64,000 nt of DNA from NCBI RefSeq assembly GCF_010726765.1, contig NZ_AP022601.1, positions 4,278,001 to 4,342,000 on the forward strand, read 5' to 3'. The position numbers were made by a program, and so were the translations under genes. Numbering within the stretch: the first letter of the stretch is position 1; every line of letters begins with the position of its first letter. Positions 33,408 through 49,137 of this stretch are shown here, one piece after another. The notes below the pieces were generated by a model that was not told the origin of the DNA, did not search any database, and saw only the letters and a program-made list of their open reading frames with translations. The DNA is from Mycobacterium gallinarum. GTDB lineage: Bacteria; Actinomycetota; Actinomycetes; Mycobacteriales; Mycobacteriaceae.

Positions 33408-33504
33408 CGCGAATCCATCTATGACGACGACCTGCCCGGGCTATGAAGCTTGGCGACCACACTCACGGCCGCCGACGCCGACCTACGTGCGCGCTGTCGG
33501 AATC

Positions 33505-33542
33505 CGACAAAGCGTCGCGGCCTCGTTGTCTGGCTACGGCAA
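33505..33542 (+). promoter_or_regulatory. Tripartite element site 1, upstream of the Rv1733c-like operon
   Basis: CGACAAA-N13-GTTGTCT (33505-33531), then 6 nt, then GGCAA (33538-33542). The dyad ends 75 nt before ATG 33607. One of six copies; see findings. Confidence 0.72.
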
Positions 33543-33606
33543 TCGTTGCGCGGGAGATCCAGGCCACGATGAAAAGCATCGGATGGTCGAGCTGTGGAGG
33601 TGGGTG

Positions 33607-33708
33607 ATGGTCACCAGCGTGCGGATGGATGCCACCGCTGCTGATCACACCGGTAGCAGTCGGTACAGTGCCGGACGTAGGCGAGTCGCCGAAGGGTGCC
33701 GTCGATGA
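33607..33708 (+). CDS. 33-aa leader ORF coupled to the Rv1733c-like gene
   Basis: ATG 33607 has a GTGGAGGTGGGTG ribosome site and ends in CGATGA, so its stop overlaps ATG 33705 of the next gene. The peptide (33 aa, Arg-rich end RRRVAEGCRR) has no homology I recognise. Its placement relative to regulatory site 1 equals that of other first genes of this regulon, which supports translation. Confidence 0.45.
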   Translation: MVTSVRMDATAADHTGSSRYSAGRRRVAEGCRR

Positions 33709-34376
33709 ACCCCCACCGTCCCCACGATCAACGCGCGACGGCTCACCATCGGGCTGGCGCAGCCGCGATGGACACCTTCATGGTGCGGCTGCCTCGGTGG
33801 CCTGTTGTGCTGCGGCTGGCCGGTCGCGATCCACTGGTGCGCACGACTGATCGGATCGAGGCGCTGGTGTTGGTGCTGGCTGTCGTGGTGTCGCTGCTCG
33901 CGCTCCCGATCACAGCGGCCGTGGGCACCGCGGTCTATGACTCGAGCCGTCACCTCTACGCCGAGCAGGCCCATACCCGCCACACGGTGACCGCGACGGT
34001 CACCGACGTCCCTGCCTCCCAACAAATCTTGCGAACAGGTACCACCACCGTTGCCGCCCGATGGACGACCGGCGACGCCGAACACACCGGCACGGTCGAG
34101 GCGCAATCAACAACCCAGACCGGTGACTCCATTGAGATCTGGGTCGACAACACCGGAGCGCAGGTCCCCGCACCACTGCCGACCACACGCGCCGCCGTTG
34201 AGGCGGCAATGGGCGCGCTCGTGATCTGGATTAGCGTGGCCGCCATCGCAGCGACCCTGTTCACCGTCACCCGGGCCGTTTGTGACCGTATCCGTTTCGC
34301 CGGATGGCAACACGATCTCGACAACTTGGTCGACAACAGCGGTGGACATCATCCCGGCCGCACGTCGGAACGGTGA
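33705..34376 (+). CDS. Rv1733c-family membrane protein
   Basis: 223 aa from ATG 33705 (GTG 33696 is possible). It has GRDPLVRTTDRIEALVLVLA then a first membrane helix (about 47-70), YDSSRHLYAEQAHTRHTVTA and a beta-rich external loop, and a second helix near 165-190. Family hallmarks are NPLxRxxDRxEA and VYxxxxxxYAxEA. Mtb Rv1733c is a hypoxia (DosR) antigen of unknown function. A truncated paralogue sits at 45165. Confidence 0.87.
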   Translation: MNPHRPHDQRATAHHRAGAAAMDTFMVRLPRWPVVLRLAGRDPLVRTTDRIEALVLVLAVVVSLLALPITAAVGTAVYDSSRHLYAEQAHTRHTVTATVTDVPASQQILRTGTTTVAARWTTGDAEHTGTVEAQSTTQTGDSIEIWVDNTGAQVPAPLPTTRAAVEAAMGALVIWISVAAIAATLFTVTRAVCDRIRFAGWQHDLDNLVDNSGGHHPGRTSER

Positions 34377-34622
34377 CGCCGTGATTGCACCGCCCTCCAC
34401 CGGCCCTGCATCCGGCCTGCCAAGAACCGCGACCAGCGCCAACGATTCATCCACAGCCGGCCAAGCGCTGGGCGGCGACGACAGACATCGCGCGACGGAT
34501 CCGCGCACGGCCCAATCACGCTGGCGCGCTGTGCATACCGAACACGCCGTGCACGAGATGAATTGCCGGCCGCATCGGCCCAGTAGATCCCGAATACCCA
34601 CCCTCGACCGAAAGGCAACGAC

Positions 34623-36077
34623 ATGACCGACACGACACCCATACCGCCGACGACGACCGATGCCGGCATCCCGGTGCAAAGTGACGAGCACTCATTGACC
34701 GTCGGACCCGACGGGCCGATCCTGCTGCACGATCACTATCTGATCGAACAGATGGCGGCGTTCAACCGCGAGCGCGTCCCCGAGCGCCAACCACATGCCA
34801 AGGGCAGCGGGGCCTTTGGGCGCTTCGATGTCACCAATGACGTCAGTGCGTTCACCAAGGCAGCGGTGTTTGCGCCCGGCACCACCACTGAGACGGTGAT
34901 CCGGTTCTCCACTGTGGCCGGTGAGCGCGGCAGCCCAGACACCTGGCGCGACGTGCGCGGTTGGGCGCTGAAGTTCTACAGCACAGAGGGGAACTACGAC
35001 ATCGTCGGCAACAACACTCCGGTGTTCTTCCTGCGCGACCCGCTCAAGTTCGGCCATTTCATCCGCTCGCAGAAGCGCCGCGCCGACAGCAACCTGCGCG
35101 ACCACGACATGCAGTGGGATTTCTGGACGCTCTCACCAGAGTCCGCCCACCAGGTCACCTACCTGATGGGCGATCGCGGTATCCCGTCGACGTGGCGGCA
35201 CATGAACCTCTACGGCTCCCACACCTACATGTGGATCAACGCCGCCGGCGAAAGATCCTGGGTCAAATACCATTTCATCACCGATCAGGGCGTGCAGAAC
35301 CTGACTCAGGCCGAGGCCGACGAGCTGGTCAAACTCGATACCGATCACCACACCCGTGACCTGTTCGAGTCGATCGATCGTGGCGAGCGCCCGTCCTGGA
35401 CGCTGAAGGTGCAGATCATGGGATTCGACGAGGCCAAGGCCTACCGGTTCAACCCGTTCGACCTGACCAAGGTGTGGCCGCACGCCGACTACCCGCTGAT
35501 CGAGGTCGGCAAGCTGACGCTGGATCGCAATCCCACCGACAATCACAGCCAGATCGAGCAGGGCGCTTGGGAGCCGTCCAACATGGTGCCCGGAATCGCG
35601 CCCAGCCCGGACAAGATGCTGTTGGGCCGGATGTTCGCCTACGCCGATGCCCACCGCTACCGCATCGGAGCCAACTACAACCAACTCCCGGTCAACGCAC
35701 CCACGTCGCCGGTGCACTGCTACAGCACCGCCGGTCACATGCGTTACCAGCTGGCCACCGATCCGGTGTACGCGCCCAACTCCAAGGGCGGGCCCACCGC
35801 CGACACCGCCCGCTACGGCGATGCAGGGGGTTGGCACACCGATGGTGACATGGTGCGCACCGCCTACACGCTGCGCGCCGCCGACGACGACTGGGGCCAG
35901 GCCGGCACCCTTGTCCGCGATGTGATGGACGAGGCCGAGCGGGACCGATTGGTGGACAACGTCGTTGGTCATCTTCGGGCCGGCGTCAGCGAACCGGTAC
36001 TGCAACGCGCCTTCGACTACTGGCGCAACATCGACCGTGACCTCGGCGATCGGATCGAAAAGGGTGTCCTGCAATGA
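34623..36077 (+). CDS. katA: Catalase (clade 3, monofunctional heme)
   Basis: 484 aa, the size of small-subunit catalases. Distal His58 ([10 protein letters not shown]), [11 protein letters not shown], the active-site Asn stretch VGNNTPVFF near 130 and the proximal heme motif [16 protein letters not shown] (Tyr ligand) are all present. It converts H2O2 to water and O2 in the cytoplasm. A 41-aa ORF (36074-36199) overlaps its stop (ATGA) and leads to the ferredoxin. The 246-nt upstream region (34377-34622) holds no gene and lacks the tripartite element, so control must be different. Confidence 0.96.
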
Positions 36078-36186
36078 GTCCAGCCATCGCGAGGGCATCG
36101 CTGGCCGCAACGGCGTTCATCACGGTGATCCCCGGCATCCTCGGACAGCCAGTATCTAACTCGAGGCGAGGTGAAGGAGGACGCAT

Positions 36187-36378
36187 ATGCGTGTCGTAGT
36201 GGACCGTGACCGCTGTGAAGGCAATGCCGTGTGCGTGAGAATTGCGCCTGAGGTGTTCACACTCGACGATGACGATTACGCCGTGGTCACTGCCGACCCC
36301 GTCCCGGGCGGCCAGCAGGCGCTCGCCGAGGAAGCCATCGCCGAGTGCCCGCGCGCGGCCCTGTCGCGCAAAGATTAG
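36187..36378 (+). CDS. Small 3Fe-4S ferredoxin
   Basis: 63 aa behind GAAGGAGG. Cys motif RCEGNAVCVRIAPEVF (first and second Cys) and ECPRAAL (third) is the single-cluster ferredoxin that usually serves cytochrome P450s. It could be electron partner of the P450 at 1248 with the reductase at 27538, though they are far apart. Confidence 0.92.
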   Translation: MRVVVDRDRCEGNAVCVRIAPEVFTLDDDDYAVVTADPVPGGQQALAEEAIAECPRAALSRKD

Positions 36379-36876
36379 GCGGCGCCAGGTCACATTCTGA
36401 TGGAAAGTCCGACACCAACACTCCGTCGGTAATTCGAGTCGAGACCCGACCGTAGCCACCGTCGCCTGCCGAAACGGTGCCGGGCCTGAGGAGAAGCGGC
36501 CGACAAATTGAGCTGCAGACGACTGGTGGCGGACCCCTGTCCAGGGCGGCCCGCCCACCCTAGGTGGACCGATTAAAACCTGTGGATGGTTAGCAGCTCA
36601 GCGTCACGTATGCCGTCTTGTTCATTACAGTCGTGGCGATGTTCGGCCCAGACGTGCCAAGCACGTTTTCCGGCACACCGGAGTCGGACGCGAGTATGTT
36701 CGGCCCGGCGCCGACGAACACGCGTGTGCCACAACATCGAAAATTCGGCATCGTTTTCGGGCCTGAATGATGTTGCGGCATCCTGGTTGTCGGCGGGCGC
36801 CCGCTCAACTGGCGGGTTTCGACCGAGACTCCAGCTTGTTCAACAGCAGAACCGCCGCGCTCGTGCTGTCGAAACT
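36379..36876. other. Region without a confident gene; coding-like minus frame 36590-36808
   Basis: The minus frame ends with GTRVFVGAGPNILASDSG, then GTSGPNIATTVMN, an internal GxGPNI repeat of coding-like composition but unknown family. No ribosome site. The rest shows nothing. Confidence 0.3.
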
Positions 36877-36914
36877 CGACAAAGCCAGGCAGCGAGATTG
36901 TTCAGTGCGGGCAG
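36877..36914 (+). promoter_or_regulatory. Tripartite element site 2
   Basis: CGACAAA-N13-ATTGTTC (36877-36903), 6 nt, GGCAG (36910-36914). The right half and the last box are slightly diverged. Faces the small ORF at 37031 and Dps beyond it. Confidence 0.55.
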
Positions 36915-37030
36915 GTCCCAGACCTACACCTCGCAGGACGATGGAAAGAGTCGATCGCTGCTGCCGGGGAGCCCATAGTCCCCCACCAAGTCGACGGCTG
37001 CAGGTAAAGCAACGAGAGCAGTCAACGAAT

Positions 37031-37150
37031 ATGTCAAAGGAGTACGAAGTGGTGGATTCGAATGAGCCCTGGGTTGGCTGGGCGGCAGTCACCGTGGGTG
37101 TGGGCGCGGCCGTAGCGGACTTCGCGGCGAGCTCTACGCAGGTGGCGTGA
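37031..37150 (+). CDS. 39-aa protein of unknown function
   Basis: ATG 37031 encodes a 39-aa peptide with an acidic start (MSKEYEVVDSNEPW) and a hydrophobic, Ala/Val-rich second half that could insert in a membrane. In-frame ATG 36941 would extend it by 30 residues. Located between regulatory site 2 and Dps. No family recognised; the call rests on composition and context. Confidence 0.4.
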   Translation: MSKEYEVVDSNEPWVGWAAVTVGVGAAVADFAASSTQVA

Positions 37151-37332
37151 CAACAGGCCCGAGTTAGTGGCGCGTGCGCAACACTGGATTGCCGCGACGT
37201 CACAGCAGCGTCCGAAGTATGCTGTCCCCCTCACTTTTGGCGAAAGAGATTGCCGTAGAGATGGTTTCGGCAACAACGTGCTATAGCCAGTTGCCCTCAT
37301 TATGCAAATGTTCAATCAAAAAGGAGTCATTG

Positions 37333-37848
37333 ATGTCTAGCCACTACACCGTTCCGAGTTTGTCCGACAAACAGGGAGCTGAGGTCGCCGCGATGCTGCA
37401 AACACAGCTGAGCCGATACAACGACTTGCACCTGACCCTCAAGCACGTGCACTGGAACGTTATCGGTCCGAACTTCATCGCGGTACACCAGATGATCGAT
37501 CCCCAGGTGGCCCTTGTACGGGGCTACGCCGACGAAGTCGCCGAACGCATCGCGACGCTAGGCGGATCGCCGCGGGGCACTGCGGACGCGATCATGAACG
37601 AGCACGGCTGGACTGAGTACCCGCATGATCGAGACTGTGCCGACGTCCATCTGGCCGCGCTCGAGCGAGTCTACAGCGGGGTCATCGCCGAGACGCGCGA
37701 AAACGTCAAGCGCTTAGAGGATTTGGACGTCGTTACCCAAGATGTGCTGATCGGGCATGCGGCCGAGCTGGAGAAATTTCAGTGGTTCCTACGAGCTCAC
37801 CTGGAAACCGCCGACGGCTTCATCAGTCGGTTAGCTCGGGGGGCCTAA
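37333..37848 (+). CDS. dps: Dps-family ferritin-like DNA-protection protein
   Basis: 171 aa from ATG 37333 behind AAGGAG. The inter-subunit ferroxidase residues are visible: KHVHWNVIGPNF (His38/His40), VHQMIDPQ and YADEVAERI. It forms dodecamers that oxidise Fe(II) with H2O2, storing iron and shielding DNA. With catalase upstream this is a peroxide/iron defence unit. Confidence 0.95.
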   Translation: MSSHYTVPSLSDKQGAEVAAMLQTQLSRYNDLHLTLKHVHWNVIGPNFIAVHQMIDPQVALVRGYADEVAERIATLGGSPRGTADAIMNEHGWTEYPHDRDCADVHLAALERVYSGVIAETRENVKRLEDLDVVTQDVLIGHAAELEKFQWFLRAHLETADGFISRLARGA

Positions 37849-37922
37849 ACGGCCGCCGCAGAACGAAATTGCAAATGCACGGCGCGTGACTTGTTGCGAG
37901 CATTGACAAAGGATCCAGACCG

Positions 37923-38234
37923 ATGACCCACGATGTCGAGAAACGATTTGACCGGCCCCCCACATTCCGAGCAGCCGCGCGGTATGCAGGGGCGTTCGTC
38001 GCAGTGGCCGCGGTGGCATTCGCCGTCTACGCATTCACCGCGCGGGAATCGGTGATCGCGGCCTCACTGATCCCGGCAATTCTGCTGGCCGGCGGGATCG
38101 GCGCATTCGTGAAGACCTACCGGGTGTGGAAACACCAGGGCGCGTGGCCGGCATGGCAGGGCGCCGGATGGTTCCTGCTCGTGCTGATGCTGGTCACTCT
38201 GTCAATCCCTGGTGCTGCGATGTACGCCGCGTAG
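37923..38234 (+). CDS. Small three-helix membrane protein, unknown function
   Basis: 103 aa. Hydrophobic segments at about 20-42, 45-62 and 80-101, with the loop KTYRVWKHQGAWPAWQGAGW rich in Trp. Such proteins are often found beside Dps or other stress genes in actinobacteria. Function unknown. Confidence 0.68.
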   Translation: MTHDVEKRFDRPPTFRAAARYAGAFVAVAAVAFAVYAFTARESVIAASLIPAILLAGGIGAFVKTYRVWKHQGAWPAWQGAGWFLLVLMLVTLSIPGAAMYAA

Positions 38235-38783
38235 AAGCAAGATCAACTCGCGTCCGCGCCCGAAGCGACATACAATCCTCGCCGATGCCGCCAGGCCACG
38301 ATCTCGCGGCGTCGGCGCGCAAAGCGCGCACCTTCCGCCGCCGTATGATGGTCAACGCTATACCGAGGGATCGCGATACTGTTCGGCGCGGGGGTAGGCG
38401 GTTTCTGATGGCGCCGAGTTCGGGCACGCGTTCGCACTCGGCGAAGACGCCGTCACACTCGCACTGTCGACACAGGTGGTCCTCGGGGCACTGTCGTTTC
38501 CCGACGGCTGCTCGACACTGCGGCGCGCATGATCTGACGGCTGTTCGTAGGCCGGCTGCACAACACTGGCTCCGCGGTTTCAGCGCTCGTCCGCCAATAG
38601 CGTGGACAATGGGCGATCGCTGCGGGCCGATGCCGTGCCCTGAATGGCCTATCGTCGCGTTGTGAACGCACCGGACTCGCTAATGCTCGGCGTCGGCAGC
38701 CGTCGCAATCTGGCGCTGTCAGGGCCCGTTCAGGATTCACCAACCGGCGGCAGCGTGATTCCGTTTCGTATCCGCCGTGTATG
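38235..38783. other. Region without a confident gene
   Basis: A + frame near 38405-38530 (EFGHAFALGEDAVTLALSTQ) is coding-like but short and interrupted on both sides, possibly a remnant of a small membrane protein. Otherwise nothing. Confidence 0.3.
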
Positions 38784-39959
38784 TCACCACCGCAGCAGCG
38801 CAGCGACTCCGGCTGCGTCGGCCAGCTCGCCGGCGGCCGCGCCCTCGATAGGAGTGATCAATGCTGCGGTGTCGAGGGCGCGCTCGACCAGCCGTTCGGT
38901 CAACCGGGGTTCCGGTCGCGGCTGCTGGCTGCCGGGGCCGACCTCGTCACCGCCGTAGAGCGCGTCGTCGGCACCGACAGCTCCCGTGTACCGCACCTGT
39001 GGGTCATACACCAAGTGCGCGACCCTGCCGGCGTTCAAGGCGGCGGCCACTTCGGACAATCCCAGGGCTGCCATTCCCGCGCCTGCGGCGTCGCCGATTC
39101 GCGCCAGCAGCCGTTTTTCACGGTCCTTGTGTTCTTCGTGGACCTGCTCGGTGACCGCGTCGGCCAGAGCGGCGTCATCAAGGCCGTACAAGTTCCGGGG
39201 GTCAGCGATGATGTTGTCGCGCAGCGCTTGCGGGAACAATGAAATCATCGTTTCGGTCCACCGTTCGCCGCCGCTGACCAGGATTGAATCCCAGCCGAGC
39301 TTTTCGGCAAGTTCGACTGCACGCACGCTTACCCGTTCTAAGAATCGCTGTGTGCGTTGTCTTTCCCGAGATTGACGCTGTTCACGCATCGGCGTGTGGA
39401 ACTGCCCCTTCGGGCCGCCACCGATTTGGCCAGCGCGCTCGTGCGGCGCCTGGACATATTGCTGCTGCAGCCGGTCGACCGTCGTCACCGAGCCGAGCCG
39501 CCACTCCAGCAGACGGGCCTCTTCGGCGGTGACGAGGACGACCCCGGCCGGGCTGCCTTCGTCGACGAGTTCCAGTAGCGGGTGGATGAACGGGCCGTCG
39601 TCTAACACCATCCGGGTGGGTACCGGCATCGCGCTCTCCAGTCGCACGGTCCAGTCAGCACCTAGCGCGGCGAAGGCGATGCGGCCTCGCCCAGATGCGA
39701 TGGGGCTTGTCAGGATATCCAACTGCGGCCAGAGCCGCTCTAATTGGGCGGCGATCTCGTTGCTTCGATCGCCGCCACTGCCTTGGCTGATCCGGTGCTG
39801 CAGCTCGGCGAATCTGTTTCGAAGGTCGATTGCGGCGGCCCGCAGATTCGGGTCTTGATGAGGGTCAGCGTTTACGTAGACCGACAACACGCCGAGCGGG
39901 TCGGTGCGCCGGGAGAGGTCTCGCAGACCAATATCGTCAAGGCGGTCAATCATGACCAT
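38784..39959 (-). CDS. VLRF1-type (Vms1/ANKZF1-like) release-factor-related protein
   Basis: 391 aa. The N-terminal part (LGVLSVYVNADPHQDPN) and the core with GVVLVTAEEARLLEWRLGSV then GPKGQFHTPMREQRQSRERQ correspond to the eRF1-like fold of bacterial VLRF1/baeRF proteins, with the Gln-containing loop where eRF1 has GGQ. The family is thought to hydrolyse peptidyl-tRNA on stalled ribosomes. ATG 39959 has AGGTGA upstream. Confidence 0.75.
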   Translation of the reverse strand: MVMIDRLDDIGLRDLSRRTDPLGVLSVYVNADPHQDPNLRAAAIDLRNRFAELQHRISQGSGGDRSNEIAAQLERLWPQLDILTSPIASGRGRIAFAALGADWTVRLESAMPVPTRMVLDDGPFIHPLLELVDEGSPAGVVLVTAEEARLLEWRLGSVTTVDRLQQQYVQAPHERAGQIGGGPKGQFHTPMREQRQSRERQRTQRFLERVSVRAVELAEKLGWDSILVSGGERWTETMISLFPQALRDNIIADPRNLYGLDDAALADAVTEQVHEEHKDREKRLLARIGDAAGAGMAALGLSEVAAALNAGRVAHLVYDPQVRYTGAVGADDALYGGDEVGPGSQQPRPEPRLTERLVERALDTAALITPIEGAAAGELADAAGVAALLRW

Positions 39960-40139
39960 GATGTGTCACCTGTTTCTTTCATCGGTGTGTGTCGAGTCGC
40001 TAGCTGGATGCTCTGATCGGACACGTCGCACACGTTCGCGCGACTGCGTTGGTGTTTGGCCGGCCGCGGAGCCGACAGATCGCGTGACAATTTGTGTGTT
40101 CCAACATATTTGATCGCCCACAGGGGTTCACTCAAGGAT

Positions 40140-40682
40140 TCACGCAGCTCGGTCGCCGTTATACGGCCCGGCTTTCGAGTGGGGCGCCCGCTGCGCGGGC
40201 GAAGCCGATGTGGGGTGTTTGTTCAATCTGCCCCGGGACGCCGGCTCGACTTTCAGCACCGTGACCGCGATCGGTGCTGTTCCGGGCAGGGTGCAGGTGC
40301 GGTGTTCACCGGGCCGTGCGCCGGCTACGGCGCGGCCTATCGGGGATCGCAACGGGTAGATCTTGTTGTCGTGGTCTCCGGCTCCATAGCCGCCGAGGAC
40401 GAAGGTGTCGATGTGGCCGGAGTCGTCGTAGTAGACGGTGATCGCCATGTCGGGCGCGGCGATGCGGTCATCTGTCGAATCGTCCACGACGATCGCGTCG
40501 GTGAGTAGCGTTTCAATGGCACCGATGCGCGATTGCCGCGCTCGATAGTCGTCGCGATTTTCGTCGGTATCCATGTAGTCGTCGGGGACTTCGATGCCTG
40601 GACGGCCTCGCAGCGTCGCGAGTTCCTTCTTCAGGCGGATTCGGGCCTGTCGTGTCATTGAAATATGTTTCTTTATGGGCAT
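40140..40682 (-). CDS. GreA/GreB-like transcription factor, paralogue A
   Basis: 180 aa from ATG 40682 (ATG 40658 is another option). A short coiled-coil N-terminus (RLKKELATLRGRPGIEVPDD to ARQSRIGAIETLLTDAI) lacks the acidic tip typical of GreA. The C-terminal FKBP-like domain has YPLRSPIGRAVAGARPGEH. Homologues at 48035 and 48616. These may bind the RNA polymerase secondary channel, but cleavage activity is doubtful. Preceded by tripartite site 3. Confidence 0.85.
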   Translation of the reverse strand: MPIKKHISMTRQARIRLKKELATLRGRPGIEVPDDYMDTDENRDDYRARQSRIGAIETLLTDAIVVDDSTDDRIAAPDMAITVYYDDSGHIDTFVLGGYGAGDHDNKIYPLRSPIGRAVAGARPGEHRTCTLPGTAPIAVTVLKVEPASRGRLNKHPTSASPAQRAPHSKAGPYNGDRAA

Positions 40683-40864
40683 TTCGGTATCTCGTTCTGC
40701 GTGGGTGCCGTGAGGACGGGTGCCCGTTGTTTGGGCTTGCGGCAGCTGTGTCAGCCGGCCGTCGTGTCGGCGGCTACGTTTGGCCACTGTCGGTCGTCGC
40801 GACCTTGAGGGTCTCGGCCATACTGCTGCTACCTCAATGGTCGTCGACATTGGCCCACGAACAG

Positions 40865-40902
40865 TTGCCTCTCGTCGACAATCATTGGCACGCCCGTTGT
40901 TG
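40865..40902 (-). promoter_or_regulatory. Tripartite element site 3, upstream of GreA-like A
   Basis: Dyad 40876-40902: on the + strand CGACAAT-N13-GTTGTTG; read on the minus strand it is followed after 6 nt by GGCAA (40865-40869). It lies 193 nt before the start of the GreA-like gene in a 494-nt spacer with no other gene. Confidence 0.65.
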
Positions 40903-41176
40903 TGCTCCGACAACGCATATCGTGGCCGCTACGAGGTGAGGGCTCGGGGTTCGCCAACCGCCAACGAGCTGGTGAAATCCACCCGCGTGCTGTGTTCCCC
41001 ATCATGTTCCCTTTCATGGCAGGTGGCCTGCCACCGACTCGTACTAAATCGCCGTGCACAAAGCGGTGGTTCTTCAGGAGCGCTGGGCCCTGGCCAGTGT
41101 TGACATCCTTTCCGACCCGGGTTGGCGTAAGGCCGTTCGGCCGGAATCAAGCCGCGCTCGGTATCTCGCGGGTTGG

Positions 41177-42440
41177 CTAACGCAGCGATCGGCGCAGCGG
41201 ATCGAACGCCCGCAGGATCTCGGGTTGTTTGCCGGTGGTGATCTGTTCGGCCAACAACCGGCCGGTCACCGGGCCCTGCGCTAGCCCCCACATGCCGTGG
41301 CCACCAGCTACATACACGCCCCGGGAAATTTCACCAATTAGGGCGCGACCGTCCGGGGTGACCGGGCGCGGACCTACCCAGACGTCGCTGCGTTCCGCCC
41401 AGCGCACACCTTCAAGCAGGGGGCCGGCTGACGCGACGATGGCGCGCACCCGCTGCGGTATCACCGGTTCGTGCGGGTCGCGGAATTCCATGGTGCCCGA
41501 GACCCGCATGGCCCCTCGGTACGGCGTGCACGCCACCCGCACGTCCGGCAGATAGATGGGGGTGGGCATCGGGCGGTCCACTGGCACGGTGAACGAGTAG
41601 CCGCGACCGGCCTGCACCGGAACCGACACTCGATTACCGGCCAGCCGCGACAGCCACGCCCCGGTCGCGATCACGGCAGCATCGGCGGTCAGCGACGGCC
41701 CGCTGGATAATTGCACCTCTACGGAGTTGCCTGAGCTGAACACGCCTCTGACTTCCTCGGTGCGCAGCGTTGCGCCTCGCTCCTGTACGGCTTGGCCTAG
41801 GGCATGGACAAATCGGCCCGGATCGATGAATCGCTGGCCGTTGATGTTGAGTCCAGCGGTGATGCCCGGTGACGCTAACGGCACCTGTTCACGCAGCGCC
41901 GCCCCCGATAGTGCCGTGACATACATTGACTGCCCGGCATTTTGGAGCTGCCGCAGCTCCCCCATTATCTGTTCGGCGTCATCAATGGTGCGAAACAATG
42001 CGGTGATCGGGGTATCGGTGATGGGCGCATCGACACCGTTGGCGGTAAGCACGTCATAGGCTTCGATGGCCTCCTCGTTGAGTGGCACGTTGGCCTGCAC
42101 CGCCTTATTCCACGATGATCTCCGACAGTTGGCGGCGAACTGAATCAAGAAGACCGCGAACGCTGAATCGGCGGTCAACGGGATGTGTAGCGGCGCGCTC
42201 GGGTTGCCGAGGGACCGCAGCGCATAGCGCAGCACGGCCGACGAGTTCAGCGGGATAGTCAAACTCGGCGCGATCCATAGCGTTCCCCCACGAGGCGCCG
42301 GCCGCCACGCCAGCGCGGTCCACCACGGTGACTTCGACACCACGTTCCTGCAAGAACCACGCCGTGGATAGCCCGACGATGCCTGCACCGACGACGATCG
42401 CCGACCGTGGCCCCCCATCAATGCGTTCGACGCGCAGCAT
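41177..42440 (-). pseudogene. dadA: D-amino-acid dehydrogenase (DadA-like), frameshifted copy
   Basis: The N-terminus reads [20 protein letters not shown] and WGNA in one frame from ATG 42440 (GGAGG 7 nt upstream). From about 42280 the sequence continues in another frame, [16 protein letters not shown] to FDPLRRSLR. Compared with the intact paralogue at 46639 (WGNAGWISPSLALPL), a single-base deletion after WGNA explains it. The rest of the flavoprotein (FAD GxGxxG, RGYSFTVPVDRP, VWVGPRPVTPDGRALIGE) is well kept, so the break is recent; a programmed shift or sequence error cannot be excluded. Confidence 0.85.
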
Positions 42441-42507
42441 CACAAATCCTCCGTAGTTTCACCTGGCCTGTCTAATTCCATGGTCGTGTGGATGACCGCC
42501 GCGACGC

Positions 42508-42545
42508 TTGCCCGAATTCGACAACCCCCCGAGAGGGCGTTGTCG
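42508..42545 (-). promoter_or_regulatory. Tripartite element site 4, upstream of the frameshifted dadA
   Basis: Dyad 42519-42545 CGACAAC-N13-GTTGTCG (perfect arms); on the minus strand GGCAA follows after 6 nt (42508-42512). The dyad ends 78 nt from ATG 42440. Confidence 0.75.
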
Positions 42546-42747
42546 CTAACCGACAATTCGAGCCGGGGACTAAGACCGTGCATAGGACCGAAATTAGGTG
42601 GCGAAGGTATTTCGCTGAAGACCAGAAACTGGGCCGACACGAAAATCTTCCTGTCAAAGAGTGTGCAAATAATGAGGCGAGTGGCATTTTATTTTTTCTC
42701 ACGTATGGTAGATAGCAGTGGTTGCCACTTCGTATAAAGGAGCGACA

Positions 42748-42873
42748 ATGGCTAATAAATCTGCAGGAAAAGACCTTCGGAAACCCGCGCTGTCCCTTAA
42801 AGAACGTCGGGCTATCAAGCGCGCCAGGGCGATAGAGGCGACACCGCCGCGTTCGCGTAAGCGCAAGGGTTGA
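42748..42873 (+). CDS. 41-aa basic protein
   Basis: ATG 42748 follows AAAGGAGCGACA, a good ribosome site. The peptide (MANKSAGKDLRKPALSLKER at its start, RSRKRKG at its end) is highly Lys/Arg-rich with a predicted helix. Similar short basic peptides (M-[SA]-N-K-S-A-x-K-x-L-R-K-P) are widespread in mycobacteria. It may bind nucleic acid. An AT-rich stretch (42690-42740) upstream could be its promoter. Confidence 0.7.
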   Translation: MANKSAGKDLRKPALSLKERRAIKRARAIEATPPRSRKRKG

Positions 42874-43079
42874 CGCTGACCCTGGAGTTTTTCGTGCGCC
42901 TTTGGAATGGCACGAAATCCTAGAAATACATGACCACGTGGGTGATCGACCGCCGCTCGTATCGAGTCGATTTAATCCGACTCGTGGCGATGGGCGGATT
43001 CGCGATCGGCAGTCAACAACACGCCCGCTGATCGTAATTTGCATTTCGAAACCGCGGCTTTCACGAGCCGGGCCCAGCG

Positions 43080-44603
43080 CTATTCGGTGTCGGTAGCTGC
43101 CAGTTCGATCATCATGGCCAGCCGCTTTCTCGCATCGCCTAAGGGCAGACTAGTGATCTCAGCCATCTTGCGCAGGCGATAACGCACGGTGTTTTCGTGT
43201 ACCCCCAATTGTTTACCGGCCTCGGCTGGGTCGCCTTGAGCCTCCAGCCAGGCCTGCAGAGTAAGCACGTAGTCGGATGCGTTGGCGCGGTCATGGCGGC
43301 GTAGATCGGCCACCGGTCCCCGGTCCGGAGACCGACCTGAGCGCGCCGCCGTGCGCAACCGCTGCAGAAGGATTTCATCCCAGGATTCGTCGTAGGCAGG
43401 GGGCGTGACTCGAGAAGACACCTCGTGAAGCGCCAGACACTCATCGGCCTCCAGACGGGCGGCGGCGAGGTCGCCCACCTCGGCCGTACCGCTGATACCG
43501 GCCAACACCGTCGCCCCTTCGGGCAATGCCGCCCGCAAACCGGTGATCCATTGGCGCGCCAGCGACGATTGCTCACCGGGCAGCAACGTGTAGACGGTGT
43601 TGCCGGCCAAGGCGCTGCGGCCCGGCCGTGACCAACCAAATCCGGTGGTGGCACGCTCGAAAGCCAACAGCAAGGCGGCATCACGGTCTGATCCGATGAA
43701 CGCCTGCAGGGCAATCACCCGTAATCGGCCATGCGCCAAACCCAGCCTGCTGGCTAGCGTGTCGCCATCAGCGGCGCCCTCCAGCAACCGGATCACCAGC
43801 TCGGATTCGACCTGTCGTTCAAGGTCGGCACTGGCGCGAGACCGCAACACGTGCAGGGCCACCGTGTGCGCGCCATCAGTCAGGGCGGTGCGCGCGGCGA
43901 CATCCAGTGGTGCCGGGCACGCTACCCAGACCGAGCCGATGAGTTCTCGGCCCGAGCGCACCGCCACCACCATGCGCCCGGTCGACCCGAGTCCGGCGTC
44001 CTCGCCGACAAACAACGGCTCATCAGAAACCGCCAGGTGCGCAAAGACGCCACGGTCCTCGAAGAATTCACGCAACGGCTCTGGTGTCTGTCGTTCCAAG
44101 ATCGTCGCCACCCGTGCCGAGTCAGCGTGCTGCTGCTGCCTCGAATACGCCAACACCCGCAACAGTCGATCATGGATAACGACCGCACCGCCGATGGCGT
44201 GCGCCAGGCTGTCGGCAAGTGCAAATAAATCGGTGGGGCCACGACCAGATTCTGTTTCGCGGCCCTCCAAAACCAGCCCATAGACCACGGCGGCCAAATC
44301 ACTCCACGACACAGCCTCGTCGACCACCATCACCGCGCCGGCTTCGACGTCATCGTCGAACTTGGTCGGCTTCTCAGCACCGCGCATCAGCACCACGACC
44401 GCGCGCGCCGATGCCGCCCACCGCACCGCTTCCCTGACCGATCCAGCACCAATGGCCAGCAATACATCGCCCACCACAGCGCGGTGCTCGGCCGGTTCGT
44501 GGATCACCACGCTACTCAGCTCAGTGGACCTGGGCACCGACGACCAACGCAGACGCACGCCATAACCACCGAGCACGTTCACCAAGCGGTCCAGAGTGAT
44601 CAC
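43080..44603 (-). CDS. PucR family transcriptional regulator
   Basis: About 507 aa from GTG 44603, where the PucR N-terminal domain begins (ITLDRLVNVLGGYGVRLR); a start at 44711 would add 36 residues. A central GGDEF-like/CdaR region is followed by the C-terminal PucR helix-turn-helix (AGKQLGVHENTVRYRLRKM). PucR regulators respond to purines, amino acids or other nitrogen sources. It lies between two dadA copies and may regulate them and the other tripartite sites. Confidence 0.9.
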   Translation of the reverse strand: MITLDRLVNVLGGYGVRLRWSSVPRSTELSSVVIHEPAEHRAVVGDVLLAIGAGSVREAVRWAASARAVVVLMRGAEKPTKFDDDVEAGAVMVVDEAVSWSDLAAVVYGLVLEGRETESGRGPTDLFALADSLAHAIGGAVVIHDRLLRVLAYSRQQQHADSARVATILERQTPEPLREFFEDRGVFAHLAVSDEPLFVGEDAGLGSTGRMVVAVRSGRELIGSVWVACPAPLDVAARTALTDGAHTVALHVLRSRASADLERQVESELVIRLLEGAADGDTLASRLGLAHGRLRVIALQAFIGSDRDAALLLAFERATTGFGWSRPGRSALAGNTVYTLLPGEQSSLARQWITGLRAALPEGATVLAGISGTAEVGDLAAARLEADECLALHEVSSRVTPPAYDESWDEILLQRLRTAARSGRSPDRGPVADLRRHDRANASDYVLTLQAWLEAQGDPAEAGKQLGVHENTVRYRLRKMAEITSLPLGDARKRLAMMIELAATDTE

Positions 44604-44711
44604 GACCCGCTCCCATCCCGAACTGATAATCGTAACCACGGATCGGCCCCGCCGAACGACGAACGCTTCGCGATCGATCCTGGTTGAAATGTATGCGGTG
44701 CCCGAGGTCAC

Positions 44712-45056
44712 GACGCGCTCGACGGCTCCTGACAGGTGATAGCCGGATAGCTAAACTATGCGCAATCCCCGGCTGATGGCTCAAGCAGTATCCGATCGTT
44801 GTTTGAAAATGACCGGGACCGATCAATGCGCATCGGTCGAATGACTCAGTGCCAAACTCATCGATGAGCCGGCGAGCGTCGCCGTGGCCGCGCACACATC
44901 GCCTCCGTCGCCGACCTTGTGGGCTGTTTGAAGCACCAGGGCGGACTGGGCCTCGGCCCGGATCAGCGTTGAGCGTGCCAAGACACCGTGCGTTACCGGC
45001 GGTTCGGCACGATCACGAACGATCCGTCTCGGGTGACCATGACCGCTGTCGAGATT
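44712..45056. other. Intergenic region, no gene seen
   Basis: Upstream of pucR and before regulatory site 5. Only short frames; nothing recognisable. Confidence 0.4.
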
Positions 45057-45094
45057 CGACAAAGCACGGCGGCGTCGTTGTCTGGGCCGGGCAA
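45057..45094 (+). promoter_or_regulatory. Tripartite element site 5, upstream of the truncated Rv1733c-like gene
   Basis: CGACAAA-N13-GTTGTCT (45057-45083), 6 nt, GGCAA (45090-45094). The dyad ends 81 nt before ATG 45165, which has a GGAGAG site. Confidence 0.72.
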
Positions 45095-45164
45095 GACCTG
45101 AGCCGCCAATCGCGACCACCATGAAAATGGACAAGCTATAGATGCGATTGGTGCAGGAGAGCTC

Positions 45165-45563
45165 ATGGACAGCCATGATCGGCTACCGCGGTCAGCGGCC
45201 GCACCGGTACGCGTCGCGTTGGGGCCGTCGCCTATCGCCGAGAGCCGCGAACCCGCGTCTGCCACTGCGCCATCCCCGCCTGTGTCTACGCGCCAACGGC
45301 TCACGCCCCATTCAAGCTCGAACTCGACTCGCCAACAGAATATTTCGATGCTCGTCCCCCGCCCGCACGATCAACCAATCAGCATCCGGGCGACACCCGA
45401 AGAGGCCCTGGAGACATCCGGGGTTCGTCTACCACACTGGTCCATCTTCGGGCTGGTGAGCCGTAATCCTTTGGTATGGCGCAGCGATCGGATTGAGGCA
45501 CTGGTATTGGCGCTCGCCATCACGGTGTCGCTGCTGGCCATACCGCTTGCCAGTGCGGTGTAA
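45165..45563 (+). pseudogene. Rv1733c-family gene, truncated after first membrane helix
   Basis: 132 aa. The end (FGLVSRNPLVWRSDRIEALV, then ITVSLLAIPLASAV) aligns with the NPLxRxxDRxEA part and first helix of the intact paralogue at 33705. A stop codon (TAA 45561-45563) then replaces the GTAVY that follows in the intact copy. The next bases still resemble that gene for a short distance. The remaining peptide may still be made and couple translation to DUF5994 at 45626. Confidence 0.75.
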
Positions 45564-45625
45564 ACCACCGTCGCTCCCTCATCGAGCTAATCGATTCACG
45601 ACCAAAAACAAAGGGGAACTCACTT

Positions 45626-46174
45626 ATGTCCGCACCCACCGTGTACTTCGCTCAACCACGCCGGTTGACGATCGCATATCCCCGCTTGCGATTGAAGCCC
45701 GCACACAGCTCTGCGGGTTTCGTACAGGGCGGGTGGTGGCCTCGAAGCGACCGACTGTACATCGAACTTCCGCTGCTGCTCGCAGCCTTACCGTCTCGGT
45801 CCGGTGTCATCGAGCGGGTGATCTACGACGAGAACAATTGGGCTCCCGCAGCATTGAGGCAGGAGTTTCAGGGACACAGCGTGATCCTTGAGCCCAGCAC
45901 CACCTCGCCCAACTCACTGACCTTGAGCGGCAAGCGGTTCGGAACGCTCGTACTGCTGGTGGTGCCCCACGACACCGACCAGGCCACGGCCACCACTGCC
46001 GTGACGATGGCGGCCGACCCCGACAACGTCTCGAGCGCCGAGGATTTACTGCAGATCGCGAAACCGACGAGACGGCGGCGCCGCCGCGCACTAGTGACAC
46101 AGCCGCGCTGCGGGTCCGACGACGCAGCAGTACCCCGTCGAGGACATAACCGCAGCGAATCTGCCATCGCATGA
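45626..46174 (+). CDS. DUF5994 protein, paralogue B
   Basis: 182 aa with AAAGGGGAACTC upstream. The core LRLKPAHSSAGFVQGGWWPR and the block GVIERVIYDENNWAPAAL match the other DUF5994 genes; a basic, low-complexity tail follows from about 145 (KPTRRRRRRA). Function unknown; DUF5994 proteins are typical of mycobacteria and often occur in several copies next to stress genes. Confidence 0.82.
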   Translation: MSAPTVYFAQPRRLTIAYPRLRLKPAHSSAGFVQGGWWPRSDRLYIELPLLLAALPSRSGVIERVIYDENNWAPAALRQEFQGHSVILEPSTTSPNSLTLSGKRFGTLVLLVVPHDTDQATATTAVTMAADPDNVSSAEDLLQIAKPTRRRRRRALVTQPRCGSDDAAVPRRGHNRSESAIA

Positions 46175-46534
46175 GAAATTCGACACGCTCAGTGACACTC
46201 ATCGTCGGCGACCGCAGGCCGCGGATGCGTGCCAACAGTCCCTGCGTCACTCCGGTCAGACCAGCTATTCGGCCGCAGACATCGCCGGAACCGTCGTCAC
46301 CGCACCCATGTCGCGTCGACGAGCTCGCTCATACACAGCACACCGCCGGCTGTCAGCTCGCCGACGGGTGCATCGTCGCAGTCAACGACGGGCAACGCCG
46401 CAAAACCTCCTCCGATTAGCCCGATTCGACGTCAAGAAATTTTCCACCTGGCTGGCCATTCGCGTGCACGCACTTGACGTCAACTCGCTGTCTGGGCGGT
46501 GCGGACGGCACCAATAAGTGCGTTTGTTCGATCC

Positions 46535-46572
46535 CGACAACGGCGCACTATCGCGTTGTCGGGTTCCAGCAA
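46535..46572 (+). promoter_or_regulatory. Tripartite element site 6, upstream of intact dadA
   Basis: CGACAAC-N13-GTTGTCG (46535-46561; the inverted repeat extends to ten bases, CCCGACAACG/CGTTGTCGGG with an 11-nt spacer), 6 nt, AGCAA (46568-46572). The dyad ends 77 nt before ATG 46639. Confidence 0.78.
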
Positions 46573-46638
46573 ACCGATCGCCCGTCGTCCGCTCCACCAT
46601 GGAGACAACAACGAAAGTTCAGATGTGGAGGTTTGGTA

Positions 46639-47904
46639 ATGAGCGGCGGCGAGCGCATGGACGGCGGCCCCCGGTCGGCGATCGTGATCGGCGCGGGCAT
46701 CGTCGGGCTGTCGACGGCATGGTTCCTACAAGAGCGCGGCGTCGACGTCACCGTCGTGGACCGCAGCGGCGTGGCAGCTGGCGCGTCTTGGGGCAACGCC
46801 GGCTGGATCTCACCGTCACTAGCCCTTCCGCTCAACGCGCCGGCGGGCTTGCGCGCTGGGCTGCGCTCGTTGGTCGATCCGTCCTCCCCGCTGCACATCC
46901 CGATGACCGCCGACACGGCGCTCGGGGCCTTCCTGATGCAGTTCGCCGCCAGTTGTCGCCATTCGTCGTGGAAACGCGCGGTGCGCGCCAACGTGCCGCT
47001 CAACGAGGAAGCCATCGAAGCCTTCGACGTGCTGGTCGCCAACGGCGTCGACGCACCGGTGACCGACGCCCCCATCACCGCGCTGTTTCGCAACACCGAA
47101 CATGCCGAACGCATGCTGCGTGACCTTCGCCAACTCGAAAATGCCGGGCAGACACTGTCTGTCACCGGACTGGCGGGCGAGGCGCTACGCGAGCAAGCGC
47201 CGCTGGCGTCCCCAAAAATCACCGCCGCGCTCAACATCAACGGTCAGCGCTTCATCGATCCAGGCCGGTTCGTGCAGGCGCTGGGGCGAGCGGTCGTCGA
47301 CAGGGGCGCAACGATGCGCACGCTGGAAGTCAGCGACGTGCTGTCCGCAAGCACCGGCGTCCAGGTATACCCGCGCAGCGGTAAGTGGCTGACCGCCGAC
47401 GCCGCGGTGATCGCTACCGGCGCATGGCTGCCCCAGCTGGCAGACAACCGGATACGCGTGCCCGTGCAGGCCGGTCGCGGCTACTCGTTCACCGTGCCCG
47501 TGGACCGTCCCATTCCCGGGCCGATCTACCTACCCGACGTGCGGGTGGCGTGTACGCCCTACCACGGGGCACTGCGTGTCTCGGGAGCGATGGAATTCCG
47601 CGACCCGCACGAACCGGCGGTACCCGAGAGGGTTGGCGCACTCGTCGCCTCCGCCAGCCCACTGCTGGAAGGAGTACGGTGGGCCGAACGCAGCGACATC
47701 TGGGTCGGCCCCCGCCCAGTCACCCCCGACGGGCGGGCCTTGATCGGCGAAATCTCGCGAGACGTCTTTGTGGCCGGTGGCCACGGCATGTGGGGATTGG
47801 CACACGGGCCGATCACCGGTCGCCTGCTGGCCGAACAGATCACCACCGGCAAGCAACCCGAAGCCTTGCGCGCCTTCGACCCGCTGCGCAGAACCGGGCG
47901 CTAG
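46639..47904 (+). CDS. dadA: D-amino-acid dehydrogenase, FAD-dependent (DadA-like)
   Basis: 421 aa from ATG 46639 with GGAGG 7 nt upstream. FAD motif GAGIVG (18-23) and [17 protein letters not shown] mark the DAO/DadA family; RGYSFTVPVDRP and the C-terminal GPRPVTPDGRALIGE with GHGMWGLAHGPITG are typical of DadA. It deaminates D-amino acids to keto acids and feeds electrons to the respiratory chain. Intact counterpart of the frameshifted gene at 41177. Confidence 0.93.
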   Translation: MSGGERMDGGPRSAIVIGAGIVGLSTAWFLQERGVDVTVVDRSGVAAGASWGNAGWISPSLALPLNAPAGLRAGLRSLVDPSSPLHIPMTADTALGAFLMQFAASCRHSSWKRAVRANVPLNEEAIEAFDVLVANGVDAPVTDAPITALFRNTEHAERMLRDLRQLENAGQTLSVTGLAGEALREQAPLASPKITAALNINGQRFIDPGRFVQALGRAVVDRGATMRTLEVSDVLSASTGVQVYPRSGKWLTADAAVIATGAWLPQLADNRIRVPVQAGRGYSFTVPVDRPIPGPIYLPDVRVACTPYHGALRVSGAMEFRDPHEPAVPERVGALVASASPLLEGVRWAERSDIWVGPRPVTPDGRALIGEISRDVFVAGGHGMWGLAHGPITGRLLAEQITTGKQPEALRAFDPLRRTGR

Positions 47905-48034: not shown

Positions 48035-48586
48035 ATGACTACAACCGAACGTCTTTGGATGACACCCCAGGCTCACAGTGAGCTGCAGGCAGAACTTGCC
48101 GCCCTGCGTTCACGTCCCAACATCGAAGTTCCTGAAGACTTTATGGACTACGACGACAACCTCGGCGCGAAGTACGCGGCACGACAAGCCCGCATCCGTC
48201 GAATTCAAGACTTGCTGGCCAATGCCGTGGTCGGTGAAGACCCGCCCGATGACGGTATCGCCGAACCGGGAATGGTTTTGACCGTCCGCTACGACGACAC
48301 CGGCGAGATCGAAACCTTTTTGCTCGGCGTGCGCGGCGTCGACGCCGGCGACATCGACGTGTACTCAGTCCAATCGCCACTGGGCAGCGCGATCGCTGGC
48401 GCACTAGTTGGTGAACAGCGCACCTACTCCATCCCTAGCGGGGTTAACCTGCCCGTCACGCTGCTCAAGGCGGTGCCCTATGGAATGCGTACGCCCAAAT
48501 CGTCAGGGGCACAATCTGCCTCACCGCAACGCATCAGCGGCCCTGCCCGACCCACCCGGGTAACAGCACAGGTCAACACGAAGTAA
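48035..48586 (+). CDS. GreA/GreB-like transcription factor, paralogue B
   Basis: 183 aa with GAAGGACACC upstream. The coiled-coil (LQAELAALRSRPNIEVPEDF, ARQARIRRIQDLLANAVV) and the FKBP-like domain (YSVQSPLGSAIAGALVGEQR; LPVTLLKAVPYG) match paralogue A at 40140 closely. It has the same order behind a dadA gene as paralogue A. Binding to RNA polymerase is expected; the acidic GreA tip residues are not obvious. Confidence 0.86.
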   Translation: MTTTERLWMTPQAHSELQAELAALRSRPNIEVPEDFMDYDDNLGAKYAARQARIRRIQDLLANAVVGEDPPDDGIAEPGMVLTVRYDDTGEIETFLLGVRGVDAGDIDVYSVQSPLGSAIAGALVGEQRTYSIPSGVNLPVTLLKAVPYGMRTPKSSGAQSASPQRISGPARPTRVTAQVNTK

Positions 48587-48615: not shown

Positions 48616-49137
48616 ATGACCAGTACGACACGCGTGTGGATCTCAGCGCAAGCGCACGAGCGCCTCCACCGCGAACTGGACACCCTGCGTTTTCTGTTCT
48701 CCGCCGGAATCGCCGACGACGGCACCGACGAGAATGCCACCGTAGTGCGACGTGCGTGGGAGCGGCGAATTCAACAGATACATGACCTCCTGATAAACGC
48801 CGCCGTCGGGGACGACCCACCCGACGACGGTTTGGCCGAACCGGGCATGGTGGTTACGATTCGCCGTCACGCTACCGGCGACACCGAAACGTTCCTACTC
48901 GGCGTTCACGACGCCGAATACCTAGACATGCCCGTCTATTCCATCGAATGCCCGTTGGGCGCCGCCATCGCGGGAGCACGCGCCGGTGAACGCCGCACCT
49001 TCGAACTGCCCAGTGGCAGCCCCCTGGCCGTCACCCTTCTCAAAGCGGTGCCCTACGGCCTCCACATTGCCGACGTGGACCAGCCCGCACAAAACGTCGA
49101 AGTTAAGCGCACAACAACGAAAGGCAGCACATGTTGA
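48616..49137 (+). CDS. GreA/GreB-like transcription factor, paralogue C
   Basis: 173 aa. Similar to paralogue B but with a more diverged, shorter coiled-coil (RLHRELDTLRFLFSAG); the C-terminal domain keeps YSIECPLGAAIAGARAGERR and LAVTLLKAVPYGLH. It probably arose by tandem duplication of paralogue B. Its stop overlaps the next gene's start by 7 nt. Confidence 0.83.
   Translation: MTSTTRVWISAQAHERLHRELDTLRFLFSAGIADDGTDENATVVRRAWERRIQQIHDLLINAAVGDDPPDDGLAEPGMVVTIRRHATGDTETFLLGVHDAEYLDMPVYSIECPLGAAIAGARAGERRTFELPSGSPLAVTLLKAVPYGLHIADVDQPAQNVEVKRTTTKGSTC

Follow-up and report, generated by a model that had tools for sequence, protein, structure and literature searches.

The window analysed here is a stretch of 64,000 nucleotides from the Mycobacterium gallinarum genome. 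It carries six copies of an intergenic element that face, among others, genes for Rv1733c-family membrane proteins, GreA-like proteins and D-amino acid dehydrogenase-like enzymes (dadA); a gene for a PucR-type regulator lies among them (Table 1). An earlier note, made from the sequence of this region alone, had described the element as three boxes, had taken it to define a local regulon and had named PucR as a candidate regulator. The six sites stand at the coordinates and on the strands that it claimed, and none lies inside an open reading frame (ORF) taken as a gene. The step of 6 nt from the second arm to the GGCAA-type box is fixed in all six sites; the first box, given as CGACAA, has that form in five of them and reads CAACAA in site 3.

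A wider alignment of the six window sites yields the consensus TTGTC-N7-GACAA (distal), 15 nt, TTGTC-N7-GGCAA (proximal). YTGT(C/T) opens each site 11 nt 5′ of the first box of the earlier description, and with this conserved extension the element becomes a set of four half-sites in two palindromes, each 17 bp long, that begin 32 bp from one another. In 6 of 6 sites the last box base is followed, after exactly 22 nt, by a hexamer, (C/G)ACSAT. Thus the three boxes are real but belong to a larger element with four half-sites and a −10-like hexamer. The dyad of two arms across 13 nt does not hold, since it paired the inner distal arm with the outer proximal arm and so joined two different palindromes. 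On this alignment GGCAA forms the inner half of the proximal palindrome and does not stand alone as a third box; of the idea that it is a promoter box there remains that it does sit at the −35 position.

Table 1. Sites, regulator and target genes in the window (positions of the window; aa, amino acids)
Feature	Position	Strand	Details	Gene or ORF faced
Site 1	33494..33570	+	distal 33494-33510, proximal 33526-33542, −10-like CACGAT 33565-33570	33-aa ORF 33607-33708, then Rv1733c-family gene 33705-34376 (+)
Site 2	36866..36942	+	distal 36866-36882, proximal 36898-36914, −10-like GACGAT 36937-36942	39-aa ORF 37031-37150 and dps 37333-37848 (+)
Site 3	40837..40913	−	distal 40897-40913, proximal 40865-40881, −10-like GACCAT 40837-40842	GreA-like gene 40140..40682, then ribosome hibernation factor 38784..39959 (−)
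Site 4	42480..42556	−	distal 42540-42556, proximal 42508-42524, −10-like GACCAT 42480-42485	dadA copy 1, apparently frame-broken (−)
Site 5	45046..45122	+	distal 45046-45062, proximal 45078-45094, −10-like CACCAT 45117-45122	truncated Rv1733c-like ORF 45165-45563 and DUF5994 gene 45626-46174 (+)
Site 6	46524..46600	+	distal 46524-46540, proximal 46556-46572, −10-like CACCAT 46595-46600	dadA copy 2, then two GreA-like genes (+)
PucR-type regulator, proposed binder of the six sites	43080..44711	−	longest ORF, 543 aa	
Rv1733c-family membrane protein gene	33705..34376	+	167.3 bits, cut-off 80	
MSMEG_1130-family (Balon-type) ribosome hibernation factor	38784..39959	−	654.8 bits, cut-off 480	
GreA-like gene	40140..40682	−	start picked among several in-frame candidates	
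dadA copy 1	41177-42443	−	overlapping ORFs 42105-42443 and 41177-42421	
dadA copy 2, FAD-dependent D-amino acid dehydrogenase-like	46639..47904	+		
Two GreA-like genes behind dadA copy 2	48035-48586, 48616-49137	+		

Distribution of the element and its linkage to pucR

The whole genome (6,301,681 bases) was scanned for the element pattern with at most 3 mismatches, with the reversed pattern as a control. The scan returned the six window sites (0 mismatches), one remote copy (1 mismatch) and one lone place with 3 mismatches, as well as reverse readings of three of the six sites; the control gave 1 match. The motif is therefore not found at random rates, which answers a check that the earlier note had proposed. 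The remote copy, the seventh full one (C1:3826277-3826324), lies between a second pucR and a third dadA, all in the same direction, and it too has CACCAT 22 nt past the last box. The product of the second pucR is 73% identical to the PucR of the window; only one other relative was detected in the genome, at 30% identity. The six sites do cluster, as the word ‘local’ implied, but this copy and those in relatives extend the regulon beyond the window. A looser half-pattern scan of the genome gave 19 matches versus 9 for its control; six places away from the known copies, at 117903, 121059, 1651620, 2137715, 2138629 and 3824838, were not counted, because none combines a GGCAA-type box with a −10-like hexamer at the set distance.

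Among 198 genomes searched, the pattern with at most 2 mismatches was present in 63, of which 61 belong to the 118 same-genus genomes (own included), while the reversed control over the same genomes made 7 matches in 6 genomes. Within the order, 13 of 298 genomes matched a longer pattern that takes in part of the hexamer, and no match is listed for the control. The pucR gene (E ≤1e-60) was detected in 83 of 148 genomes of the genus. For the linkage counts, these 148 were taken to include all 118 (118 plus 30 new), and 45 of the genomes counted as having no match were not individually listed. At most 1 mismatch was observed in 43 of 68 pucR-positive versus 0 of 50 pucR-negative genus genomes (Fisher 1.3e-14); with 2 mismatches allowed the numbers were 55 of 68 and 6 of 50. 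Given this linkage across genomes, PucR was a good guess at the regulator. The distance between element and pucR, taken where a match on either strand adjoins pucR, is known for 49 of the 55 genomes with both: it is 2–43 nt in 47 of them, and 117 and 406 nt in the others. As for the remaining six, G000 has a match beside its second pucR, at 17 nt, in G011 the only copy next to the gene (L113) carries 4 mismatches, and G022, G069, G077 and G094 have no match beside pucR at 2 mismatches.

We inspected 40 stretches of relatives, 36 of them with pucR; L110 has target genes and elements without pucR, and in L091–L093, picked for a 2-mismatch match without pucR, neither pucR nor target genes or elements were seen. 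The usual gene order is pucR, element, (Rv1733c-like, element,) dadA, GreA-like. The dadA gene is present in 26 of the 36 pucR stretches; in the ten stretches without dadA, the element that follows pucR points to an Rv1733c-like or GreA-like gene. The element stands between divergent pucR and dadA genes in L090, from another family of the order. In L074 there is no element within 5 mismatches; TTGTG-N7-CACAA and TTGTG-N7-CACAT can be seen by eye, 32 bp apart.

A weight matrix derived from the six window sites alone was applied to 80 named pucR loci, the best out of 376, from Mycobacterium, Mycolicibacterium, Nocardia, Labedaea, Goodfellowiella, Actinomadura and unnamed bins, some of them strains of one species. 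Of the 80 loci, 75 have a match of at least 12 bits between −10 and +70 relative to the pucR stop, and 69 have one of at least 20 bits, so that the element is kept in the orthologous regions, another check that had been suggested. In total, 103 places with at least 20 bits were found in 1.44 Mb, versus 0 in five first-order Markov sets of equal size. Two exceptions have the element elsewhere, 402 nt on (L136) or upstream of pucR (L189). In the Nocardia loci L172, L186 and L188 the distal arms are changed symmetrically to TGTG/CACA, and L074 has symmetric TTGTG/CACA arms in both palindromes; this support was gathered by eye, and covariation inside the palindromes is weak and inflated by relatedness. 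The anatomy of the element, its conservation and its linkage to pucR are direct observations, and genome scan and relatives' loci agree that the oriented, intergenic regulatory element and its regulon, as first described, are real.

Promoter geometry and the regulon in relatives

At 85% identity, 96 of the 103 sites with at least 20 bits are non-redundant. Within 390 bp around the pucR stop, 75 palindrome pairs have a spacing of 32, and no other value is shared by more than 3 pairs. A CACCATGGA-like block (at least 6 of 9) follows in 90 of the 96 sites, at 22 nt in 74, 21 nt in 15 and 24 nt in 1. In the 89 sites with the hexamer at 21–22 nt, its positions 3–5 vary and A2 and T6 are constant, which agrees with a −10 element without proving it; selecting sites by similarity itself favours this pattern. 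Mycobacterial −10 elements have the form TANNNT. The form (C/G)ANNNT, with T1 replaced by C or G, would likely be a poor −10, as would suit a promoter in need of assistance. If the hexamer occupies −12 to −7, the palindromes would be centred at about −43 (proximal) and −75 (distal). The ATG in CACCATGG was rejected as a conserved translation start: its A is often replaced (CACCCT in 8 and CACTGT in 2 of the 89 hexamers), and ATC or ATT are found as well, including at window site 3. Despite the lack of a general rule, the longest dadA ORF in L248 begins at the ATG of CACCATGG; by eye, a GTG 7 nt past the hexamer there would fit a leaderless start.

The genes downstream of the 96 sites were classed by the nearest match to queries from the window: Rv1733c-like in 35, dadA in 33, GreA-like in 15, DUF5994 in 2, an unusable query in 1 and none in 10. 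The rows of the ‘fdx’ query, which was shifted from the reading frame by one base, were left out; the ‘greA1’ query included an upstream non-coding stretch. Seven of the ten sites without a query match were run against Pfam. SPW membrane proteins were found at L159 and L179, and CBS-BON proteins in Nocardia (L172, L186 and L188), where the element behind pucR faces the CBS-BON gene in place of dadA. Read the other way, the nearly symmetric element faces a GreA-like protein in L123 and a dadA-like oxidase in L171. L175 is the same place as L243; L141 and L146 are unclassified.

Thirteen of 17 further stretches around relatives' sites were classified, as Rv1733c family (L234, L235 and L245, under cut-off), GreA-like (L237, L238, L241 and L246, some under cut-off), SPW (L236, under cut-off, and L243) or dadA-like (L247 and L248); in L239 and L249, full elements away from pucR face a gene for a STAS protein and then one for an MSMEG_1130-family ribosome hibernation factor. 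Hypoxia activates Rv2629 and Msmeg1130, and both inhibit protein synthesis in vitro (excerpts of PMC10901736). With hibernation factors whose relatives are activated by hypoxia in it, the target set looks like a slow-growth programme.

PucR as the candidate regulator

The conserved part of PucR begins near residue 37 of the longest ORF, and the true start may be later than the one listed. A C-terminal helix-turn-helix (HTH) domain (PF13556; 61.8 bits, cut-off 27) is present in 10 of 10 aligned relatives. The GGDEF-like domain (PF17853) scores 24.4 bits in the window PucR versus a cut-off of 24.5, and 6 of 10 relatives have it at E ≤0.1. A profile of ten PucR relatives matches MabR (Rv2242, 9f80, E 5e-7) and 3onq (1e-6) and, at positions 129–279, the GAF domain of CodY (1e-4). 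The fold search with a structure model (mean pLDDT 72.9, pTM 0.55) recovers MabR, 3onq and CodY, then many phytochromes (also GAF domains); the CodY entries name Ile and Leu complexes. The best NCBIfam match is AdeR (NF058503, E 3.8e-22), a regulator linked to alanine dehydrogenase, but AdeR identity was rejected, as 78.9 bits are far under the cut-off of 700.

Few PucR-family regulators have known sites (PMC7652997; this and the papers below are cited from excerpts). MabR, the activator of the fasII operon, recognises TTTTGT(N)9ACAAAA and loses binding when the repeats are replaced (PMC5541348); its structure shows dimers as well as tetramers, with the recognition helices spaced by about one turn (PMC11617747). 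Like the regulator proposed here, MabR is a PucR-family mycobacterial activator; its C-terminal GGDEF-like and HTH domains match the window PucR, in which the GGDEF-like domain is borderline, by sequence and fold. The half-sites TTGT-N9-ACAA of its operator are arranged as in our distal palindrome, and the proximal one reads TTGT-N9-GCAA. However, the outer TT..AA of TTTTGT/ACAAAA is not kept in our element, the N-terminal domain of MabR is globin-like where the window PucR has GAF, and MabR targets fatty-acid genes; neither a 32-bp tandem nor a fixed −10 distance is described for the MabR operator in the excerpts of PMC5541348 and PMC11617747. GabR of Corynebacterium glutamicum, also a PucR-type activator, binds two inverted repeats that lie directly upstream of −35, and binds strongly only with both of them, but these are 21-bp repeats at GABA genes, and GabR is without the GGDEF-like domain (PMC7652997). 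AdeR of Bacillus subtilis is a PucR-type activator too, with L-alanine as effector and, in contrast to our element, a 24-bp inverted repeat (as cited in PMC7652997). A double palindrome under a PucR-type activator thus has a precedent in GabR; what is new is the operator of the pucR-dadA family, its fixed geometry and its regulon. An open-access literature search, with most subscription journals outside its coverage, found no description of the element.

We consider it probable that each site is a promoter that depends on activation by the PucR-type regulator and its paralog. The linkage of element and pucR, the remote copy between the second pucR and dadA, the geometry, the precedent of MabR and GabR and the symmetric arm changes all point to PucR. 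One PucR dimer would bind each TTGT-N9-RCAA palindrome, and since the palindromes are 32 bp, or about three turns, apart, two dimers (or a tetramer) would lie on the same face of the DNA. The proximal dimer, near −43, would cover the −35 position and recruit RNA polymerase to the poor (C/G)ANNNT hexamer. The GAF domain would sense a small effector, perhaps an amino acid: its resemblance to that of CodY suggests a small molecule, and the place of dadA as the core target hints at a D-amino acid or its product. The induced genes would serve the processing of D-amino acids and adaptation to slow growth.

Several observations weigh against this reading. The pucR-positive genomes without a match number 25 of 68 at no more than 1 mismatch and 13 of 68 at no more than 2, and the matches with at most 2 mismatches in 6 of 50 pucR-negative genomes, which we read as chance, count against it all the same. 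In L178 and L193 no match of at least 12 bits lies within 70 nt of the pucR stop, with weak ones further on, and L191 has no matrix match at all, although by eye it keeps TTGTG-N7-TACAA. No element stands directly upstream of pucR within the window, so autoregulation is not supported. The phytochromes among the GAF matches of the model may leave the ligand class wide. Finally, binding, activation, start points and ligand are inferred from a case that is wholly comparative.

The same linkage data would apply if PucR bound the palindrome pair as a repressor, or acted both ways, and were relieved by the effector; the proximal palindrome covers the −35 position, and B. subtilis PucR does act both ways (PMC7652997). 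We hold this to be unlikely but worth keeping in mind, since both palindromes lie upstream of a poor −10-like hexamer at a fixed distance, as at activated promoters, and in the excerpts of PMC7652997 the other characterised PucR-family members are activators. A dispersed repeat (repetitive extragenic palindromic or miniature inverted-repeat transposable element type) or an RNA structure, instead of a protein-binding site, could be suspected from a palindromic element with several copies in 13 kb. It is largely refuted by pairwise identity among the six sites, which is 87% in the boxes versus 37% in the spacers and 27–29% in the flanks, so that the sites are not recent whole-length duplicates; the repeat was rejected on this contrast, and the RNA element because an Rfam search of the element gave no match and spacers and flanks are not conserved. 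With the sites also oriented to genes and placed upstream of a promoter-like hexamer, we give either origin hardly any credence.

The targets of the DosR dormancy regulon include the Rv1733c family, CBS proteins and relatives of ribosome hibernation factors, and so resemble those of our element; the DosR box is a different palindrome. Another regulator, for example a dormancy response regulator, might bind the element, with pucR a mere conserved neighbour. The Rv1733c-, hibernation-factor- and CBS-type targets do recall hypoxia regulons (PMC10901736 for the hibernation factors; DosR membership of Rv1733c is general background). Yet near-exact copies are absent from all 50 pucR-negative genomes, a copy stands at the pucR paralog, the element is kept between divergent pucR and dadA, and the half-sites are the same as those of MabR in the excerpts cited; this makes a different regulator somewhat less probable still than repression by PucR.

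Returning to activation by PucR, we propose only tentatively a wider picture for non-tuberculous mycobacteria and for Nocardia, in which PucR with its CodY-like GAF domain would read D-amino acids, such as D-alanine from the cell wall, or the keto products formed from them, and would switch on a DosR-separate dormancy programme of D-amino-acid oxidation, GreA-like RNA polymerase factors, the Balon-family hibernation factor, Rv1733c and CBS proteins. For a group of stress and hibernation genes of many non-tuberculous mycobacteria, and of some relatives, the analysis offers a regulon defined by sequence together with one particular candidate regulator, and it makes a link of D-amino-acid metabolism to ribosome hibernation testable. 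The precise architecture, with two palindromes spaced by 32 bp and the −10-like hexamer 22 nt further on, may help to find other PucR-family operators.

Target genes and neighbours in the window

Several target genes of the window are not intact. The dadA copy 1 looks broken or mis-sequenced; site 4, its promoter element, is intact. The second Rv1733c-like ORF matches profile positions 3–38 of 180 only. The 39-aa ORF behind site 2 resembles by eye the start of the SPW protein in L179 and is perhaps also broken or truncated. It follows that a working gene need not lie behind every one of the six sites at present. The hibernation factor gene lies 181 nt after the GreA-like gene that faces site 3, on the same strand, and we infer that the two are co-transcribed.

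Position 33607, taken earlier as the start of the Rv1733c-like gene, opens the 33-aa ORF instead; the likely Rv1733c start is 33705. This ORF has a GGAGGT-type ribosome site and overlaps the Rv1733c-family start by 4 nt, and translational coupling of the two is possible. Between the pucR stop and site 4 there is a small, very basic 41-aa ORF (42748-42873, +), where most relatives have only a few nt. Genes for catalase (34623-36077, +) and Dps sit between sites 1 and 3.

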